Assembly (NCBI GenBank): GCA_012729765.1
Contig: JAAYCM010000109.1
Location: forward strand, 124,001 to 188,000
Direction of reading: 5' to 3'
Source: Chloroflexota bacterium
GTDB lineage: Bacteria; Chloroflexota; Anaerolineae; Aggregatilineales; Aggregatilineaceae
DNA: 64,000 nt
The notes beneath the pieces were generated by a model. The model did not search any database. It was not told the DNA's origin and saw only the letters and a list, made by a program, of their open reading frames with translations. Below, in pieces: positions 27,733 to 44,796 of the stretch (its first letter is position 1; every line of letters begins with the position of its first letter). The translations under genes and the position numbers were made by a program.

Positions 27733-28998
27733 ATGGCCGAACTGCAACCGATTAACAAGGTCGTGCTCGCCTACAGCGGCGGGCTGGATACATCGATTAT
27801 TGTGCCCTGGCTGCGCAACAACTATCACTGCGAGGTGATCTGCTTCTGCGCCGATCTCGGCCAGGCCGAAGAACTGGACGGGCTGGAAGAGAAAGCCCTG
27901 CAGACCGGCGCGAGCAAGCTCTATATCCGCGACCTGCGCGACGAGTTCCTGCGCGATTTCGTCTTTCCCACCCTGCAATCCGGGGCGGTCTATGAGCGCG
28001 TCTACCTGCTCGGCACGTCATTTGCGCGCCCGCTGATCGCCAAGCACCTGGTCGGGATCGCGGAAGCCGAGGGCGCGGATGCGATCGCGCACGGCTGCAC
28101 CGGCAAGGGTAACGACCAGGTCCGCTTCGAGCTGACAGCGATGGCGCTCAATCCCAAGCTCCAGGTGATCGCCCCCTGGCGCGAGTGGGACATCCGCAGC
28201 CGCGAGGACGCGCTGGCCTATGCCGAGGAGTTCAACGTCCCGGTATCCTCGACGTTGAAGAGCATCTACAGCCGCGACCGCAACATCTTCCATATGAGCC
28301 ACGAGGGCGGCCCGCTGGAAGACCCCTGGAACGAGCCGGAAGAGGCGATGTTTGTGCTGACCCAAAGCCCGGAAGAAGCCCCCGACCAGCCGGCCTACGT
28401 CGAGATCGGCTTCAGCAAGGGGATTCCGGTGTCGCTCAACGGGCAGGCGCTCGACCCGGTCCCGCTGCTCGAACGGCTGAACCAGCTTGGCGCGGAAAAC
28501 GGCATCGGGCGCGTGGATATGGTCGAGAACCGGCTGATCGGCATGAAGAGTCGCGGCGTGTATGAGACGCCCGGCGGAACGATCCTGCGCGCGGCACATC
28601 AGGCGCTCGAAAGCCTGTGCCTGGACAAAGCCACGATGCATTACAAGGACTTCATCGCGGTCAAGTATGCCGAGCTGGTCTACAACGGCATGTGGTATAC
28701 CCGCCTGCGCGAGGCGCTCGATGCCTTCGTCCAGGAGACGCAGCAGACCGTCACCGGCACGGTGCGCCTCAAGCTTTACAAGGGCAATATCATTGTCGCC
28801 GGGCGCAAGAGTCCCTACAGCCTCTACCGCGAGGACTACGCGTCTTTCGGCCACATGGACATCTACGACCAGACCGACGCCGAGGGCTTCATCCACATGA
28901 TCGGCCTGCCGATGAAGGTCGATGCTCTGCTGAGCGTCGACGGCACGGGCAAGAGCCGTTATCGCCAGCCGGATTACACCCGTTTTAAGCGCGACTGA
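27733..28998 (+). CDS. argG: Argininosuccinate synthase
   Basis: 421 residues. The PP-loop [15 protein letters not shown] at residues 10-24 binds [18 protein letters not shown] (about 118-132) is the citrulline/aspartate-binding signature, and [27 protein letters not shown] completes the synthetase domain. It joins citrulline and aspartate in arginine synthesis. The ATG at 27733 has AAGGA 14 bases upstream, somewhat far. Divergent from the ilv operon and followed by argH. The rest of the arg genes are at 40133-44796. Confidence 0.97.
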
Positions 28999-29025
28999 TC
29001 GTCCTGTAGAATCATGGGTTGACGC

Positions 29026-29050
29026 GGGGCGTATTGCGATACGCCCCTAC
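29026..29050. repeat. REP-like palindrome between argG and argH
   Basis: GGGGCGTAT and ATACGCCCC arms around TGCG, ending CCCCTAC. Nearly identical to 54042-54069. Confidence 0.7.
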
Positions 29051-29089
29051 ATGCTGTCCCCGGCGATTATTTCCACGAGGAACGAAATC

Positions 29090-30490
<1,401 letters not shown>

Positions 30491-36183: not shown

Positions 36184-39100
36184 GTGTTCGAAACCCATTT
36201 GATGCGAAAGTCGATCGTCCTCAGAATCGGGCCAGTCGCTTATCTGCGCGATCTGTGGGGAGCACTAAGAAACCGCTTCAACGCGCCCGGACCCTTGCCA
36301 GCAGCTTTACCGTCAGCTTCAAAGCATGACAAGCCGCTTTCCGCTCCAGACCTGTTCGAGCGCCTGGTGCACGCCAGCCCTGCCGGAATCACGGTCGTCA
36401 ACGCCAGGGGCGAGATCGTGTTTGCCAATGCGCGCGCCGAGCAAATCCTGGGGCTGACGCGCGGTGAGGTCGAAGCCCGTACTTATAACGCGCCGGAGTG
36501 GCGCATCACGGCACTTGACGGCAGCCCATTTCCAGACCGAGAACTCCCGTTCTCGCGCGTTAAAGATTCCGGCCAGCCGGTATTCGACATCTGCCATGCC
36601 ATCGAGTGGCCCGATGGGCGGCGCGTGCTGCTTTCGATCGATGGCGCGCCGCTCTTGGGGCGGAATGGCGTGATCGAGAGCGCGACTTTTGTCATCCAGG
36701 ACATTACCGCGCGCAACTGGGCTGAGCAGATGCTTCAGGCCAGCGAAGAGCGCTACCGCTCGTTTGTCGAGAATATGCCCGTTGCGATCTATCGTAACAC
36801 GCCCGGCCCGCACGGTGAGTTTGTGATGGCAAACCGGGCCTATCTTGACCTCTTCGGCTTCGATTCGCTGGAAACGCTGCGACAAAGCGCGGTCGCTGAC
36901 CTGTATGCCGTCCCTGCCGAGCGCCAGCAGTTCTCCGAGCGGCTGCTGGCCGAAGACAGTGTGCGCGACGTCGAGCTGCAGCTTCGCCGGGTGGATGGCT
37001 CGGTGCTGTGGGGCTCGGTTTCGGCTCACGTGCTGCGCGATGAAAATGGGCAGCCGCGCTACTTCGACTGTGTGCTGCAAGACATTACCGAGCGCAAGCG
37101 GGTCGAGAACGAGCTGGCAGCCGGGCGCAGCCTGATGCACACGCTGCTCGACAACCTGCCCGACTACGTTTACGTCAAAGACGCTGAAGGCCGCCTGCTC
37201 CTTGGCAATATGGCGCTGGCGCGGCTGCTGGGAGTCGATTCGCCGGATAAGCTGGTGGGGCGCACCGAGACGGAGTATTACGGCTCCGAGCTGGCGGAGT
37301 ACTACCACAAGGTGGATCTGGATGTTATACAGCAGGGCCGTCCCCTATTGAACTGGGAAGAGGAAACGGTTGATGCCGCCGGTAACTGGCTGCGTATCCT
37401 GACCAGCAAGGTGCCGCTCTACGACGACGAGGGCCGGGTGCTGGGCGTGCTGGGCATCAGCCGCGATGTCACCGAGCGCTACCGGATCGAGCAGGCCCTG
37501 CGCGAGTCTGAGGCCAAGTTTGCCACGGCATTCCGCGTATCGCCCGACGCGATCAACGTCAACCGGCTCTCGGATGGCCTATACCTGGACATCAACGAGG
37601 GCTTCACCCAGCTCACCGGCTATACCCGCGAAGAAGCAGTTGGCAAGACCTCGTTTGAGCTGAATATCTGGGCTGTGCCTGCCGAGCGCGAAGGCATGGT
37701 CCGCCAGCTTCAGGAACAGGGTTACGTTCAGAATTTCTCGGCGACTTTTCGCCTGAAGGATGGCCGTTTGCGGACCGGGCTGCTTTCGTCGCGGGTGATC
37801 GACTGGAACGGCGAGCCGTGTATTCTCTCGATCACGCGTGACATCCACGAGCGCGCACAGGCCGAGGCGCGGGTCCACGAGATGGCGAAGTTCCCCTCGG
37901 AAAATCCTGAGCCGGTGATGCGTGTCAGCGCCGATGGCATACTTCTGCACGCTAACCCGGCCAGCCGGTCGCTCCTGGAAAAATGGGGATCATCCGAAGG
38001 CGAGCCGGTGCCAGAAGTCTGGCGGACGCATGTGCAGCGGGTTCTGGCCAGCCAGCGGTCGATCATCATCGAAGAGCCGTGTGGCGACCGGATTTTCGCC
38101 CTGACACTCGTCCCGATCGTCGAAATGCATTGGGTCAATATTTACGGGCACAATATCACCGGGCTGCGACAGGCTCAGGAAGCCGAGCGCGATCAGCGGA
38201 TACTGGCCGAAGCGTTGATCGACAGCACGGCCACGCTGACCAACACCCTCGACGTGGGGCTGGTGATGCAGCGTATTCTGGACAATGTCGGGCGTGTGGT
38301 GCCGCACGATACGGCTAACATCATGCTGATCGAGGGCGACGAGGTGCGCCTGGCCTACTGGCGCGGCTATACCCCGGAACAGGCCGAAGTCTTTTCACAT
38401 TTCCGCTTCAACCTGACCGCGACCGAAACCCTGTACCGGATGTACTCCACCGGCCAGCCGGTCATTGTGCCCGATCAGGTCGCCTATTCCGGCTGGGTTC
38501 CGATTCCTACCGTGGACCACGTCATGTCCTATGTCTCGGCCCCGATCCGCGTGCATGAGCAGGTAGTCGGCTTTCTCTCGCTCGACAGTACGATCCGCCA
38601 CTTCTTCACCCCGGCCCATGCCCAGCGGCTCCAGGCGTTTGCCGATCAGGCCGGGATTGCGATCCAGAATGCGCAGCTTTACGGGCGCATTGTGGCGCAC
38701 AAGGCCGAGCTGGAGCAGCGCGTCGAGCAGCGAACCGCCGAGCTGAACCAGGCCAAAGAGCGAGTCGAGGCGATCCTCAACAGCAGCAGCGACGCGATCT
38801 TCCTGGCAGGTATCGACGGGGCGATCCAGCAGACCAATCCGGCCTTCGACTGGTTGTTCGGCAGCACCATCGATGCCTACTTCGGCCAGTCGCTGCTGAT
38901 GCTGGTCGGGCCGGATCATACCGGGTCGCTGCATGCCGCGTTCCAGTCCGCCATCCAGCAGCAGCAGCCGCAGCGGATCGAAGTGGTGGCCTGCTGCCGT
39001 GACGAGCACACCTTCAACGCCGATCTGGCCATCGCGCCGCTGGTGGAGCACGGGCAAACGCTGGGCGTGGTGTGCAGCATGCGCGACATAACCGCCTGGA

Positions 39101-39846
39101 AAGACCTGGAAGCCCAGCTTCGCCGCACGCTGGAGCGCCAGATGGAACTCAACGAGCTGAAGACGCGCTTTGTGTCGATCGCCTCACACGAGCTGCGCAA
39201 CCCGCTGGCCGTGATCCAGACCGCCAGCGACATCCTGCGCAAGTACAGCGACCGGCTGGACGAGGCGCGCAGACAGCAGGAGTTCGTGCGTATTCGGTCC
39301 AGCATCAAGGCGATGGTGCAGCTTCTGGACGATGTGCTGACCATCGGGCGGGTCGAGGCGGGCAAGCTTAAGTTTGAGCCGGAGCGCTTCGATCTGATCG
39401 AGTTCTGCCAGGAACTCGTGCGCGAGCAGTCGATAGTGACAGGCCTGGCGCAAAAGATCGAGTTTTCCGCGTCGGGCGCGACCGGCGATGTGATCATGGA
39501 CCGCCAGCTTTTGCGGCATATCATCAGCAACCTGCTCTCGAACGCGGTCAAATACTCGCCTTCGGGCAGTGCGGTCCAGTTCGACCTGGGGTGCGACGGG
39601 CAGCAGGCCGTCTTTCGCGTCGCTGACGCCGGGATTGGCATCCCGGAGGCGGACCAGGCCAATCTGTACATCATGTTCCACCGCGCCGAGAACGTCGGCC
39701 AGATTCCAGGCACGGGCCTGGGGCTGGCGATCGTGCGCCAGGCGGTCGAGCTGCACGGCGGGACGATCACATTCGAGAGCACCGAGGGCGAGGGGACGAC
39801 CTTCACGGTAACGCTGCCGATGCTGCCGCTCGATTTTGAGGGGTGA
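36184..39846 (+). CDS. Multi-PAS/GAF sensor histidine kinase
   Basis: 1220 residues if GTG at 36184 is used; an ATG at 36202 is equally possible and no clear Shine-Dalgarno decides. No membrane segment is seen, so the sensor is cytoplasmic. Approximate order: PAS domains at about 55-180, 185-305, 315-435, 440-560 and 565-665, a GAF domain (680-840), a short coiled coil (840-865), a sixth PAS (868-985), HisKA and HATPase. The phospho-acceptor is His1002 in SIASHELRNPLAVI; NLLSNAVKYSP, DAGIGIPEAD and GTGLGLAIVRQ are the N, G1 and G2 boxes. No receiver domain or partner regulator is adjacent. The signal is unknown; PAS/GAF stacks often bind haem, flavin or small ligands. Confidence 0.92.
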   Translation: MFETHLMRKSIVLRIGPVAYLRDLWGALRNRFNAPGPLPAALPSASKHDKPLSAPDLFERLVHASPAGITVVNARGEIVFANARAEQILGLTRGEVEARTYNAPEWRITALDGSPFPDRELPFSRVKDSGQPVFDICHAIEWPDGRRVLLSIDGAPLLGRNGVIESATFVIQDITARNWAEQMLQASEERYRSFVENMPVAIYRNTPGPHGEFVMANRAYLDLFGFDSLETLRQSAVADLYAVPAERQQFSERLLAEDSVRDVELQLRRVDGSVLWGSVSAHVLRDENGQPRYFDCVLQDITERKRVENELAAGRSLMHTLLDNLPDYVYVKDAEGRLLLGNMALARLLGVDSPDKLVGRTETEYYGSELAEYYHKVDLDVIQQGRPLLNWEEETVDAAGNWLRILTSKVPLYDDEGRVLGVLGISRDVTERYRIEQALRESEAKFATAFRVSPDAINVNRLSDGLYLDINEGFTQLTGYTREEAVGKTSFELNIWAVPAEREGMVRQLQEQGYVQNFSATFRLKDGRLRTGLLSSRVIDWNGEPCILSITRDIHERAQAEARVHEMAKFPSENPEPVMRVSADGILLHANPASRSLLEKWGSSEGEPVPEVWRTHVQRVLASQRSIIIEEPCGDRIFALTLVPIVEMHWVNIYGHNITGLRQAQEAERDQRILAEALIDSTATLTNTLDVGLVMQRILDNVGRVVPHDTANIMLIEGDEVRLAYWRGYTPEQAEVFSHFRFNLTATETLYRMYSTGQPVIVPDQVAYSGWVPIPTVDHVMSYVSAPIRVHEQVVGFLSLDSTIRHFFTPAHAQRLQAFADQAGIAIQNAQLYGRIVAHKAELEQRVEQRTAELNQAKERVEAILNSSSDAIFLAGIDGAIQQTNPAFDWLFGSTIDAYFGQSLLMLVGPDHTGSLHAAFQSAIQQQQPQRIEVVACCRDEHTFNADLAIAPLVEHGQTLGVVCSMRDITAWKDLEAQLRRTLERQMELNELKTRFVSIASHELRNPLAVIQTASDILRKYSDRLDEARRQQEFVRIRSSIKAMVQLLDDVLTIGRVEAGKLKFEPERFDLIEFCQELVREQSIVTGLAQKIEFSASGATGDVIMDRQLLRHIISNLLSNAVKYSPSGSAVQFDLGCDGQQAVFRVADAGIGIPEADQANLYIMFHRAENVGQIPGTGLGLAIVRQAVELHGGTITFESTEGEGTTFTVTLPMLPLDFEG

Positions 39847-39949
39847 GATATTTGTACGATTCAACCAAGAGTGTTGGTTGTGTCCTGGTTCCAGGTGTGT
39901 TACTGTTAAACCGTTGCAGAACCTATCTGAATGATATGGATCGAAGCTG

Positions 39950-40036
39950 ATGCTGTCGTTTAGCTTTTTCCCGCGCCGCCCGCGTCGTCGCCCGGCCCCC
40001 TCTACCGAGGGTCCGGATTTGTGGCGTTGGGCATAA
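39950..40036 (+). CDS. Arg-rich leader peptide of the argCBDAJ operon
   Basis: 28 codons, ATG at 39950, TAA at 40034-40036. The product begins MLSFSFFP followed by RRPRRRP (residues 9-15), i.e. five Arg codons (CGC CGC, CGT CGT CGC) within six positions, the control run. Codons 20-22 plus one base (GAGGGTCCGG, 40007-40016) are exactly complementary over 10 bases to CCGGACCCTC in the terminator at 40061-40096. Five codons separate Arg14 from this strand, as in the two ilv leaders. The ribosome site is weak (GGA about 9 bases upstream). The ORF starts 104 bases after the kinase gene. Confidence 0.75.
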   Translation: MLSFSFFPRRPRRRPAPSTEGPDLWRWA

Positions 40037-40060
40037 GCAGGATCAGATCAAGCCGACACC

Positions 40061-40096
40061 ACCGCTCCCGGACCCTCCGGGAGCGGTTTTCTTTTT
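40061..40096 (+). terminator. Attenuator terminator before argC
   Basis: A 12-bp perfect stem, ACCGCTCCCGGA (40061-40072) with TCCGGGAGCGGT (40076-40087), a CCC loop, then TTTTCTTTTT (40087-40096). It stands 37 bases before the argC start, so it must be passed for argC expression from the leader promoter. It may also end the histidine kinase transcript. Confidence 0.9.
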
Positions 40097-40132: not shown

Positions 40133-41134
40133 ATGGGGATTGATGTCGGAATTTATGGGGCGACCGGCTATACGGGCCTGGAACTGGTCCGGCTGCTGGA
40201 TGGGCACCCCGACGCGCGGATCCGCTTTGTGACCTCGGAATCGTCAGCCGGGCAAAGCCTGCGCCAAAGCTGGCCCCAGGCCCCCGATCTGCCGCTGGTC
40301 GCCGCCGCGGACGCGCCGCTCGACCAGGTGCAGTGCGTTTTCCTGTGCCTGCCGCACACGCTCTCCGCTCCCATCGCGGCGCAGGCGTTGGCCCAGGGCG
40401 TGCGCGTGATCGACCTCTCCGCCGATCTGCGCCTGGACGATCCCGCCGTGTATACGGAGTGGTACCACGTCGCGCATCCCGCCCCGGACCTGCTGCCGGT
40501 GCCCTACGGCCTGCCGGAACTGGGCCGCGCGGCGCTGCCCGGTGCACGTGTGATCGCCAGCCCCGGCTGTTACGCGACAGCGGTCCTGCTGGCGACCGCG
40601 CCGCTGGTGCGCTGTGGGCTGCTGGTCCCCGGCGCGCCGCTGATCGTGGATGCCAAGTCCGGCGTGTCGGGCGCGGGCCGCACCCCCAAACAAAACATGC
40701 TGTTCGCCGAAGTGCACGGCAATTTCTCCCCCTACAACATCGGGCGGGCGCACCGCCACCTGGCCGAGATCGAGCAGGAGCTTGACCGCGCCGGGCAGCC
40801 CTACGGCACGCTGATCTTCTCGCCGCACCTGCTGCCAACCGATCGCGGCATCCTGGCGACGGTGTATGCCCAGGTGCGCGCGATGGATGCGGTGCGGGCG
40901 GCCTTCGAGGATGCGTATGCCGGGGAGCCGTTGGTGAGCGTGCTGCCCGCAGGTGAATTAGCGACGCTGGGGCACGTGGTCCGCACGCCGCGCGCGGCCA
41001 TCTCGCTGACGCCGGCATCCGATGACCTGCTGATCGTCGTCTCCGTGCTGGACAACCTGCTCAAGGGCGCGGCCTCGCAGGCGGTCCAGAACTTCAATCT
41101 GATGTGGCAGATGCCCGAAACGACCGGGCTGTAG
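40133..41134 (+). CDS. argC: N-acetyl-gamma-glutamyl-phosphate reductase
   Basis: 333 residues. The N-terminal NADP-binding motif GIYGATGYTGLELVRLL is at residues 6-22 and the catalytic Cys146 is in ASPGCYATAV. VSGAGRTPKQNMLFAEV and the His-containing HRHLAEIEQEL complete the type 1 ArgC pattern. It reduces N-acetylglutamyl phosphate in arginine synthesis. First gene of argC-B-D-A-J, directly behind the attenuator. Confidence 0.96.
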   Translation: MGIDVGIYGATGYTGLELVRLLDGHPDARIRFVTSESSAGQSLRQSWPQAPDLPLVAAADAPLDQVQCVFLCLPHTLSAPIAAQALAQGVRVIDLSADLRLDDPAVYTEWYHVAHPAPDLLPVPYGLPELGRAALPGARVIASPGCYATAVLLATAPLVRCGLLVPGAPLIVDAKSGVSGAGRTPKQNMLFAEVHGNFSPYNIGRAHRHLAEIEQELDRAGQPYGTLIFSPHLLPTDRGILATVYAQVRAMDAVRAAFEDAYAGEPLVSVLPAGELATLGHVVRTPRAAISLTPASDDLLIVVSVLDNLLKGAASQAVQNFNLMWQMPETTGL

Positions 41135-41155: not shown

Positions 41156-41914
41156 ATGATGGCGATACGAAGCGAACTCCCCATTGTGATCAAGATCGGC
41201 GGTAACGATCTCGAAAAGCCCGGCTTCGTGGACGATCTCGCGCAGGCGGTGGCGCACCTGAGCCAGCAGGTGCCGTGCGTGCTGGTGCACGGCGGCGGGC
41301 AGGCGATCAAGCGCTTGCAGCAGCAGTTGGGGATCGAGCCAATCTATGTCAACGGCCAGCGCGTGACCGACGACGCCACACTCCAGGTAGCCGAGATGAT
41401 GCTCTCCGGCGTGGTCAACAAGCAGCTTACACTGGCGCTGCTGCGGGCTGGAATTGATGCAATCGGCCTGAGCGGAGTCGATCGCGGCCTGATCCAGGTC
41501 GAGCCGTGGGGCGCGGATATGGGGCGCGTGGGCCGGATCGTGCACGTGCGGTCGGATGTGCTTCTGGCGCTGTGCGAGCAGGGCGTCGTGCCGGTGATCT
41601 CACCGATCTCGATGGGGCCGGATGGGCGCTACAATGTCAATGCCGATCACGCCGCCGGGGCGATTGCCGCCGCGCTGCATGCCGCGCACGCCACCTTCCT
41701 GACGAATGTGCCGGGGGTGCAAATCGGGGCGGAAGTCGCGCCTTATCTGACCGTCGCGCAGGCGCAGGACCTGATCGCACAAGGTGTGATCACGGGCGGG
41801 ATGATCCCCAAGGTCACGGCGGCACTGGACGCGGTTGGCAGGGGGGTGCGCCAGGCCGTGATCACCGATCTGCCCGGTCTCACCGCCGGGACAGGCACCA
41901 TCTTCGCCGTTTAG
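41156..41914 (+). CDS. argB: Acetylglutamate kinase
   Basis: 252 residues; ATG at 41156 or 41159 (GGAG upstream fits both). PIVIKIGGNDLEKPGF and LVHGGGQAIKRL are the phosphate-binding glycine loops. NVNADHAAGAIAAALHA and GVITGGMIPKVTAALDAVG carry the catalytic Asp and Lys. It lacks the N-terminal helix of arginine-inhibited hexameric NAGK, so direct feedback by arginine on this enzyme is less likely. Phosphorylates N-acetylglutamate. Confidence 0.95.
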   Translation: MMAIRSELPIVIKIGGNDLEKPGFVDDLAQAVAHLSQQVPCVLVHGGGQAIKRLQQQLGIEPIYVNGQRVTDDATLQVAEMMLSGVVNKQLTLALLRAGIDAIGLSGVDRGLIQVEPWGADMGRVGRIVHVRSDVLLALCEQGVVPVISPISMGPDGRYNVNADHAAGAIAAALHAAHATFLTNVPGVQIGAEVAPYLTVAQAQDLIAQGVITGGMIPKVTAALDAVGRGVRQAVITDLPGLTAGTGTIFAV

Positions 41915-41946: not shown

Positions 41947-43134
41947 ATGCACGAAACTCAAGCGAAAACCGCGCAGTACGTCCTCAATACCTATGCCCGC
42001 GCGCCGTTCGTGCTCACACACGGCGCGGGGATGTACGTCTATGACAGCGAAGGCCGCTGCTACCTGGATTTCACATCCGGGATCAGCGTGAACGCGCTGG
42101 GACATGCCGATCCCGCGATTACCGCCGCCGTAGCCGAACAGATCGGCCAGCTCAGCCACATCTGCAATCTCTACTACTCCGCGCCCCAGGCCGATCTGGC
42201 CGAGCGGCTGTGCACCCTCAGCTTTGCCGACAAAGTCTATTTTGCCAATTCCGGTACTGAAGCGGTCGAAGCGGCCATCAAATTTGCCCGCAAATACGCG
42301 CTTGACACGCACGGTCCCGGTAAAACCGGGATCGTGTCGTTTACGGGCGGCTTTCATGGGCGTACGGCGGGCGCACTGGCGCTGACTCCCCGCGAGAAGT
42401 ACCAGGCCCCCTTCCGCCCGCTGATGCCCGGCGTGACGCATGCCCCCTTCAACGACAGTGCCGCCGCCGAAGCCGCCATCGGGCCGGACACGTGCGCGGT
42501 ATTCGTCGAGCCGGTGCAGGGCGAGGGCGGTATCTATCCCGCCAGCGCCGAATTTTTGCAGACGCTCCGCGCGGCCTGCGACCGGGTCGGGGCGCTGCTG
42601 GTCTTCGACGAAATTCAGTGCGGGATGGGGCGCACCGGCACGCTGTGGGCCTATAAGCAGACCGGCGTTATGCCCGACATGATGACGGTCGCCAAGGCGC
42701 TGGGCGGCGGGCTGCCCATCGGCGCGACGCTGCTCAGCGATCGCGTGGCGGCGGTGATGCATCCCGGCGAGCATGGCAGCACCTTCGCCGGCGGGCCGGT
42801 GATCTGCCGCGTGGCCGATCTCGTGCTCCAGCGGGTGAGCGATCCGGCGATGCTGGCGCACATCAACGAGATGGGCGCGCTGCTGGTCGAGCGCCTGCAA
42901 GAACTGAACTCGCCGCACATCCGCGAGGTACGCGGGCGCGGCCTGATGGTCGGCGTGGAGTTCGACAGCGAAGTCGCGCCGCTGATCCAGGCCGGTTATA
43001 GGTACGGGCTGCTGCTGATCAACGCCGGGCCAAACGTGCTGCGCCTGCTGCCGCCGCTGATCGTGGGCGAAGCGCATATAGAGGAATTTGTGAATAAGCT
43101 GCAAGTCACCCTTTCGGAGGCTGTTCTCTCATGA
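41947..43134 (+). CDS. argD: Acetylornithine aminotransferase
   Basis: 395 residues from the ATG at 41947. Class III PLP aminotransferase: YLDFTSGISVNALGHADP, NSGTEAVEAAIKFARKYA, FTGGFHGRTAGALALT, VFDEIQCGMGRTG and the PLP Lys in TVAKALGGGLPIGA. Converts N-acetylglutamate semialdehyde to N-acetylornithine and may also serve as succinyldiaminopimelate aminotransferase. The 3' end overlaps argA by ATGA. Confidence 0.95.
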   Translation: MHETQAKTAQYVLNTYARAPFVLTHGAGMYVYDSEGRCYLDFTSGISVNALGHADPAITAAVAEQIGQLSHICNLYYSAPQADLAERLCTLSFADKVYFANSGTEAVEAAIKFARKYALDTHGPGKTGIVSFTGGFHGRTAGALALTPREKYQAPFRPLMPGVTHAPFNDSAAAEAAIGPDTCAVFVEPVQGEGGIYPASAEFLQTLRAACDRVGALLVFDEIQCGMGRTGTLWAYKQTGVMPDMMTVAKALGGGLPIGATLLSDRVAAVMHPGEHGSTFAGGPVICRVADLVLQRVSDPAMLAHINEMGALLVERLQELNSPHIREVRGRGLMVGVEFDSEVAPLIQAGYRYGLLLINAGPNVLRLLPPLIVGEAHIEEFVNKLQVTLSEAVLS

Positions 43135-43622
43135 TCATCCGCCATCCCCAACCCGGAGAAGTGGACGCGATTCTCGCCTTATTTGAAGAGGAGGTGCACG
43201 CGGGCAGAATGCTGCCGCGCACACCGGAGAACGTCCGCGCCGGGATTGAGGATTGGCTGGTGGCGGAACGCTACGGGCAGGTGATCGGCTGCGCGTCGCT
43301 GGTCGCGTTCAACCAGGAGTTATGCGAGCTGCGCTCGCTGGCGGTCGCGCCCGCGTGTCGGGGCCAGGGTATCGCCGGGCAGTTGATCGCGGCTGTCGTC
43401 CAGATGGCGCGCGAGCGCGGCTTCCGGCAGGTGCTCACGCTGACGCGCGCGCCGGGCCTGTTCGAGCGGGTGGGCTTCCGGCGTGACTTTGTGGCGAACT
43501 ATCCTGAAAAAGTCTGGCGCGACTGCACGCTGTGCCCCTTCCAGGCCAACTGCGACGAGGTCGCGCTGCTCTATCCGGTGCTGGAGCAAGAGGAGATCAA
43601 GACGACCTATGAGCGGGTATAG
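43131..43622 (+). CDS. argA: Short N-acetylglutamate synthase (GNAT type)
   Basis: 163 residues, single GNAT domain. Acetyl-CoA-binding motif A is LRSLAVAPACRGQGIAGQL (about 67-85). The C-terminal EKVWRDCTLCPFQANCDEVAL with three Cys is characteristic of the short NAGS group (Mycobacterium Rv2747-like). It makes N-acetylglutamate from acetyl-CoA and glutamate, priming the acetyl cycle that ArgJ then recycles. Overlaps argD (ATGA) and argJ (14 bases), so expression is coupled. Confidence 0.88.
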   Translation: MIIRHPQPGEVDAILALFEEEVHAGRMLPRTPENVRAGIEDWLVAERYGQVIGCASLVAFNQELCELRSLAVAPACRGQGIAGQLIAAVVQMARERGFRQVLTLTRAPGLFERVGFRRDFVANYPEKVWRDCTLCPFQANCDEVALLYPVLEQEEIKTTYERV

Positions 43623-44796
43623 CGTGCGCGGCTTTCAGATCGCCGGGGTGCACTGTGGGCTGAAGCGCGACGGCAAAAAGGATATTGCGCTGCTGGTCAG
43701 CGACCGGCCCTGCATGGCGGCGGGCGTCTTTACCACGAATCAGGTCAAGGCCGCGCCGGTACGCTATGATCAGGCGATCCTGGCCCGGCCCGGTGCGCAG
43801 GTCCGCGCGGTGATCGCCAACACGGGCAGCGCCAATGCCTGTACCGGCGAGGCCGGGCTGGCGAACACCCACCAGACCGCGGTGCTGGTCGCTGCCGCAA
43901 TCGGCTGCCAGCCGGACGAAGTGTTGACCCTCTCGACCGGCGTGATTGGGCTGCCGCTGCCGATGGACGCGATCGCGTGCGGCGTCGCGGCGCTGGCCCC
44001 CGCCCTCGATGCGCAGGGCTGGCCGGGCGCTGCCCAGGCGATCATGACGACCGACACGCAGCCCAAGCTGGCCTGTGTGCAGCACCCCGACGGTTACACC
44101 ATCACCGGAATGGCGAAAGGCGCCGGCATGATCGCGCCCAACATGGCAACCATGCTGGCCGTGATTGCGACCGATGCCGCGATCGAGCAGCCCGATCTGG
44201 CGCGCGCGCTGGCCGGGGCGGTCGAGAACAGCTTCAACCGGATTGTGGTCGATGGCGACATGAGCACGAATGATACCGTGCTAGTGCTGGCGAACGGCGC
44301 TTCTGGCGTGGCGGTGCGCGATCCGGCGGCCTTCGAGGTGGCGCTGGCGGGCGTCTGTGCCCAGCTTGCCCAGGCGATTGTGCGCGACGGTGAGGGCGCG
44401 ACCAAATTTGTGACGCTGCACGTCACCGGCGCGCGCAGCGTGGACGAGGCCAGGACGATTGCCCACCAGATCGCAACCTCGCCGCTGGTCAAGACTGCGT
44501 TCTACGGCGGCGATCCGAATTGGGGCCGGATCGTGTGCGCGGCGGGCTATGCCGGGGTTGCGTTCGACCCGGACCGGCTGGCGCTGTGGCTGCTGGATGC
44601 CGACGGCGCGCCCGTGATCCAGCTTGTCGAGGCGGGCCAGCCGCTCGACTATGACGAGCCAGCCGCGATCGCGCTGATGCAAGCGCCGGAATGGGGCGTG
44701 CGGCTCGATGTCGGTCAGGGCGAGGCGGCGACCTGGGTCTGGACGTGCGATCTCAGCCACGACTACGTCACGATCAACGGGCACTACCGCACCTGA
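43609..44796 (+). CDS. argJ: Glutamate N-acetyltransferase (ornithine acetyltransferase)
   Basis: 395 residues from the ATG at 43609. The precursor self-cleaves before Thr181 in GAGMIAPNMATMLAVI, the N-terminal nucleophile of the beta chain. TNQVKAAPV, NTGSANACTGEAGL, NSFNRIVVDGDMSTNDT and GDPNWGRIVCAAGYAG are standard ArgJ blocks. It transfers the acetyl group from N-acetylornithine to glutamate; bifunctional forms also use acetyl-CoA. A separate argA immediately upstream suggests this may be the monofunctional kind. Last gene of the operon. Confidence 0.95.
   Translation: MSGYSVRGFQIAGVHCGLKRDGKKDIALLVSDRPCMAAGVFTTNQVKAAPVRYDQAILARPGAQVRAVIANTGSANACTGEAGLANTHQTAVLVAAAIGCQPDEVLTLSTGVIGLPLPMDAIACGVAALAPALDAQGWPGAAQAIMTTDTQPKLACVQHPDGYTITGMAKGAGMIAPNMATMLAVIATDAAIEQPDLARALAGAVENSFNRIVVDGDMSTNDTVLVLANGASGVAVRDPAAFEVALAGVCAQLAQAIVRDGEGATKFVTLHVTGARSVDEARTIAHQIATSPLVKTAFYGGDPNWGRIVCAAGYAGVAFDPDRLALWLLDADGAPVIQLVEAGQPLDYDEPAAIALMQAPEWGVRLDVGQGEAATWVWTCDLSHDYVTINGHYRT

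Follow-up and report, generated by a model that had tools for sequence, protein, structure and literature searches.

How is the arginine operon of a bacterium regulated when the customary repressor appears to be missing? ArgR/AhrC repressors are the usual control of arginine biosynthesis. A search for ArgR (PF01316), whose controls were positive, found no protein over the cut-off in any of 18 family genomes. The question arises at an argC operon in the window, as we call the whole 64,000-nucleotide stretch analyzed here, which comes from a member of the Aggregatilineaceae (Anaerolineae; Chloroflexota). We approached it by reading the region upstream of argC, by comparison with relatives at increasing distance, and by RNA folding.

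Leader, terminator, and operon at argC

The region upstream of argC holds a leader open reading frame (ORF) of 28 codons, with Arg at residues 9, 10, 12, 13, and 14, and an intrinsic terminator, the stem of which (40061-40072/40076-40087) comprises 12 pairs, 9 of them G-C, with a loop of 3 and the tail TTTCTTTTTC. Codons 20 to 23 contain GAGGGTCCGG (40007-40016), the exact reverse complement of CCGGACCCTC (40068-40077) in the 5' arm and loop of the terminator. A preliminary description of this DNA had drawn attention to these elements, namely, a 28-codon ORF with RRPRRR at residues 9 to 14, a 12-bp terminator with a U run ahead of argC, and a 10-base complement, and all of them proved accurate when the sequence was reread. 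In the predicted fold, the antiterminator is longer than the 10 bp noted at first, as 40021-40030 pairs with 40053-40062, and a hairpin of 39992-40002 with 40007-40016 (1:2) competes for strand 2. The positions of all features are collected in Table 1.

Table 1. Features of the argC leader and operon in the window
Feature	Position	Strand	Basis
Candidate sigma-70-type promoter, weak: TTGTGT (39878-39883), 17 nt, TACTGT (39901-39906), TG before -10	39878-39906	+	By eye
Leader peptide ORF, MLSFSFFPRRPRRRPAPSTEGPDLWRWA	39950-40036	+	ORF reading; homologs precede argC in 13 family genomes
Regulatory codons 9-14, Arg-Arg-Pro-Arg-Arg-Arg (CGC CGC CCG CGT CGT CGC)	39974-39991	+	
Strand 1, CCGG (39992-39995) and CCCTC (39998-40002); forms 1:2 hairpin with strand 2	39992-40002	+	Fold; family covariation of 1:2
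Strand 2, GAGGGTCCGG; partner of strand 1 or strand 3	40007-40016	+	
Inner antiterminator arm (GTGG, GTTGG)	40021-40030	+	Regional fold; without covariation support
Inner antiterminator arm (CCGAC, CCAC), partner of 40021-40030	40053-40062	+	Regional fold
Intrinsic terminator, U-rich tail included; 5' arm and loop contain strand 3 (40068-40077)	40061-40096	+	Terminator scan; covariation
argC, N-acetyl-gamma-glutamyl-phosphate reductase; ATG at 40133	40133-41134	+	NCBIfam TIGR01850 above cut-off
argB, acetylglutamate kinase	41156-41914	+	TIGR00761 above cut-off
argD, acetylornithine aminotransferase family; start approximate	41947-43134	+	TIGR00707 above cut-off
GNAT N-acetyltransferase, possible argA-type N-acetylglutamate synthase	43131-43622	+	Best match PRK07757, below cut-off
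argJ, ornithine acetyltransferase/N-acetylglutamate synthase; start approximate	43600-44796	+	TIGR00120 above cut-off

The leader of the window ends with TAA at 40034, 18 nt past the place usual in the family, because TTTG stands here in place of the TTAG that provides the stop in most family members. Its own ribosome-binding site is weak; over all leaders, Shine-Dalgarno signals are likewise weak and in only slight excess (31%, versus 21% in shuffles). The candidate promoter in Table 1 was unlisted by the automatic scan and lies at the place homologous to the better promoters of relatives. In many relatives and families, consensus-like promoters stand 5' of the leader, e.g., TTGACA-17-TATNAT, 45 to 75 nt before the first Arg codon. 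These promoters make less likely a start of argC transcription after 40096, which the preliminary description had named as evidence against attenuation.

The gene 5' of the leader in the window encodes a PAS sensor kinase (36184-39846), and the hairpin sits between this gene and argC. It might therefore be no more than the terminator of the kinase gene, with the argC promoter located after the hairpin and the Arg-rich ORF being fortuitous. We regard this explanation as extremely unlikely, since the element stays with argC although the upstream neighbor differs among family genomes, since the Arg run and the terminator complement are kept far above chance, and since promoters precede the leader in many families.

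Following the leader, the genes are ordered argC-argB-argD-GNAT-argJ. The argG and argH genes form a separate operon within the window (27733-30490). We found no conserved leader in the regions upstream of argG, and the argG-argH operon of the window is likewise without an Arg leader; thus, the attenuator proposed below seems to control only the early-pathway operon. Most family genomes contain a second argC-like gene (L022 to L030; e.g., L029, G000:C9:2074-3084), about 40% identical, whose operon includes RimK-like, kinase, and aminotransferase genes and resembles that of a LysW-type lysine/arginine pathway. In the family genomes, these second copies are not preceded by an Arg leader.

Conservation in the family, class, and phylum

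Family loci were found with the argC protein as the query, and 12 of them had a readable upstream region. In all 12, an ORF of about 22 to 28 codons carries an Arg run and GGGTCCGG or a one-base variant of it, mostly with a stop after it, and is followed by a terminator with CGGACC. An RNA covariance model added a thirteenth locus, bringing the architecture to 13 of the 13 genomes in which the argC upstream region is assembled, and it returned a single strong copy per family genome, at argC. The comparison that had been suggested as a check at the outset, i.e., whether close relatives share the Arg run and the complementarity, thus found both in every one of the 13 family members.

The Arg run is kept in relatives while its motif varies (RRPRRRP, PRRERRSRP, PRRRSRRP, SRRTTSH, RRRRPDSF, and RLRRPRTN). 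The Arg codons of the leaders are CGC or CGT in 116 of 126 cases, whereas the argC genes at these loci have them in 309 of 504. This CGY bias would fit the sensing of a CGY-reading Arg isoacceptor, a constraint imposed by RNA structure being the other possible cause. The same observations bear on the idea of an arrest peptide, in which the nascent Arg/Pro-rich chain would stall the ribosome on arginine, ornithine, or another ligand and operate the same RNA switch; the models are fungal AAP and enterobacterial SpeFL, and the signal would be something other than codon starvation. Arg and Pro residues do recur in the leaders, and arginine-linked leader control is known for speF (PMC6386406). However, that Arg richness alone is kept under a changing peptide motif is what codon reading predicts, the CGY bias argues in the same direction, and a stall at high arginine would switch the operon on, which is the wrong sign for feedback on synthesis. 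An arrest peptide is thus an improbable account of these leaders.

A covariance model built on the family alone (R1) was run blind over 249 class genomes. Of its full-length hits at E<=0.01, 8 fell outside the family, and 5 of these 8 lie directly before argC. At the order level, nearly all of 21 new argC loci from six further families have Arg leaders, those read incompletely being confirmed by the detector described next. We also used a pattern detector that calls a short ORF with at least 4 Arg in 8 residues located 20 to 150 nt before an intrinsic terminator. It passed 82/126 argC upstream regions of the class, versus 4/630 dinucleotide shuffles and 0/126 reverse complements, and its rate on background tiles was under 1% (4/524 of this window and 5/590 of other loci). 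When a strong complement between strands 2 and 3 was required in addition, 66/126 upstream regions passed, versus 1/630 shuffles. Many of the 44 that fail the detector have a leader with three Arg. Shared as it is by every family genome with an assembled upstream region and by most class upstream regions while nearly absent from shuffles, the leader architecture is not due to chance.

In the wider phylum, the leader is present in families f82 (6/6) and f108 (2/2). No convincing leader was seen at five distant argC loci of named genomes that were scanned. Within the class, none of the listed members of families f30 and f54 has an argC match at E<=1e-50; in these lineages, the argC route may be absent or argC may be very different.

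Competing helices and a model for attenuation

Given the family alignment, RNAalifold, unaided, recovered both the 1:2 hairpin and the terminator (3:4), and 7 of the pairs show changes on both sides. The covariation observed in the family was reached by 0/500 shuffles. Strands 2 and 3 can be paired in 12/12 family members. The covariation of the inner antiterminator helix in the family is no higher than that in shuffles.

Between families, the sequences of the antiterminator strands vary and their complementarity is retained: the pairs of strands 2 and 3 are GGGTCCGG:CCGGACCC in f1, TGAGGTCAG:CTGACCTTA in f2, TGAGGTTCG:CGAACCTCA in f3, GGTCTGG:CCAGACC in f4, and GAGGTTCGGTGGG:CCCCCCGAACCTC in f82. 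The strong hits comprise 45 different strand 2 sequences in 19 families, and such diverged versions of the leader constitute a natural data set on the co-evolution of competing RNA strands. When strands were swapped between families that had not been selected for complementarity, the own strand beat the foreign one with a probability of 0.71 (Wilcoxon P of ~0.01), an effect that is modest because the TCTGG/CCAGA core is common. Over the class, a simple permutation gave P<=0.1 for 1:2 pairing in 10 of 74 loci, and the 1:2 hairpin therefore rests on the family alignment and the folds. In family f2 (L075 in G100), the antiterminator copies part of the 3' arm of the terminator (GGGATTTTTGC) shortly before the leader stop; hence, the mimicry of strand 4 takes in the U tract.

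We furthermore folded the nascent RNA as far as the loop of the terminator, with everything behind the leading edge of the ribosome masked as unavailable. For the window, the predicted probability of 2:3 pairing rose from 0.005 in free RNA to 0.95 when a ribosome was placed on the last Arg codon and was 0 when it stood at the stop; the corresponding medians over 74 loci were 0.01 for free RNA, 0.93 for a stall on Arg, and 0 at the stop. In several families, free RNA is predicted to form 2:3, and the state adopted without translation may be different there. The full-length RNA at equilibrium mostly favors the terminator, so that, as in known systems, the outcome depends on the order in which the RNA is made. 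Taken together, the three helices are predicted to be mutually exclusive and suitably placed for a three-state switch of the trp type.

Considering these data, we propose a model for control of the operon. Transcription would begin 5' of the leader ORF, with a ribosome trailing the polymerase. At low arginine, the ribosome would stall on the Arg run at codons 9 to 14 and cover strand 1, leaving strand 2 to pair with newly made strand 3; the terminator would be blocked and argC transcribed. With ample arginine, the ribosome would reach the stop, and strand 2 would be either covered or returned to the 1:2 hairpin, allowing the 3:4 terminator to form. In the window, where the stop is late, a ribosome positioned there would leave strand 2 near its trailing edge, and a refolded 1:2 hairpin would bar strand 3. 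Without translation, strand 2 would be held by strand 1 and the terminator would again form. In this scenario, the operon would most likely be turned on only under arginine shortage.

The argC-argB-argD-GNAT-argJ operon is thus very likely controlled by ribosome-mediated transcription attenuation in response to charged tRNA-Arg, because the parts of the leader, their conservation, the mutually exclusive helices, the covariation, and the single strong copy per genome at argC all agree with this reading. From sequence, comparison, and folding, we infer where transcription starts, that the ORF is translated, that the ribosome stalls, that transcription terminates, and that the system responds to arginine. 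The preliminary description had already suggested ribosome-mediated Arg attenuation of argC; conservation, covariation, and three-state folding lend support to that suggestion, which was right and understated.

Known attenuators and other arginine control

The amino acid attenuators that have been reviewed concern His, Leu, Thr, Trp, Ile/Val, and Phe (PMC3766115), those in actinobacteria are at trp, leuS, and ilvB, and T-boxes are given as the RNA control for arginine (PMC1262725). The argC leader resembles both these actinobacterial attenuators and the proteobacterial ones of trp, his, leu, thr, ilv, and phe: a short ORF is rich in codons for the amino acid that the operon makes, alternative 1:2, 2:3, and 3:4 helices are predicted, and an intrinsic terminator immediately precedes the first gene of the pathway. 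It differs from them in its Arg specificity for a biosynthetic operon, in the lineage in which it occurs, and in lacking a match to an Rfam leader family.

A further likeness is found in the speF leader orf34/SpeFL of enterobacteria, where ribosome pausing at leader Arg codons senses arginine (PMC6386406), much as is proposed for the Arg codons of the argC leader. However, orf34/SpeFL controls ornithine decarboxylase via Rho, RNase G, and translation, has two Arg codons and a fixed HIRRT..HIMM core, and is not an intrinsic-terminator attenuator of arginine synthesis. The leader of the window has neither this core nor a position before speF; both the peptide and the gene context differ.

In the literature searched, which covered subscription journals thinly, we found no earlier attenuator of arginine biosynthesis, and older predictions may exist. 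Within that literature, the initial view that Arg attenuation of argC had not been described fits the reviews (PMC3766115, PMC1262725). The mechanism is classical; what looks new relative to the available literature is its specificity for arginine biosynthesis, the lineage in which it occurs, and the fact that ArgR is apparently absent. The leader would add arginine to the amino acids governed by attenuators, in a lineage with little experimental genetics.

Feedback of arginine on arg genes is also the task of T-boxes and ArgR/AhrC, which achieve it by other means: a T-box recognizes uncharged tRNA through a conserved fold, and ArgR binds DNA. One could nevertheless imagine argC to be controlled by a T-box or a ligand-binding riboswitch, with the ORF as a by-product, all the more so as T-boxes are common in these genomes, at about 8 per genome. 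We give this very little credence. At the gathering threshold, Rfam, including the Trp, His, Leu, and Thr leader families and T-box RF00230, had no match in the window; at a relaxed threshold, the sole hit, itself sub-threshold, was to an antisense RNA and fell on the terminator hairpin, and nothing plausible was seen at the argC leader. The ORF and three simple helices account for the conserved sequence. The T-boxes counted in G000 and 17 family genomes all lie away from argC.

At the class and phylum levels, ArgR was over the cut-off in 1/150 class genomes and in 51/251 phylum genomes, all of the latter outside the class in that draw, and a leader at argC was found in 0/20 ArgR-bearing phylum genomes. 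Over much of the group, the leader appears to be conserved in place of the ArgR repressor, and it offers a reason why ArgR can be missing in this lineage. Both ArgR and the leader are missing from many phylum genomes; the absence of ArgR alone is therefore no predictor of the leader. A wider hypothesis, which we put forward only tentatively, is that leader-peptide attenuation is the old and principal form of arginine control in much of the phylum, that ArgR and the leader are mutually exclusive, and that the CGY isoacceptor is the one mainly read. Where the class of the window has the leader, many of the ArgR-bearing phylum genomes instead encode ArgR a few kilobases from argC, apparently in or next to the arginine operon.
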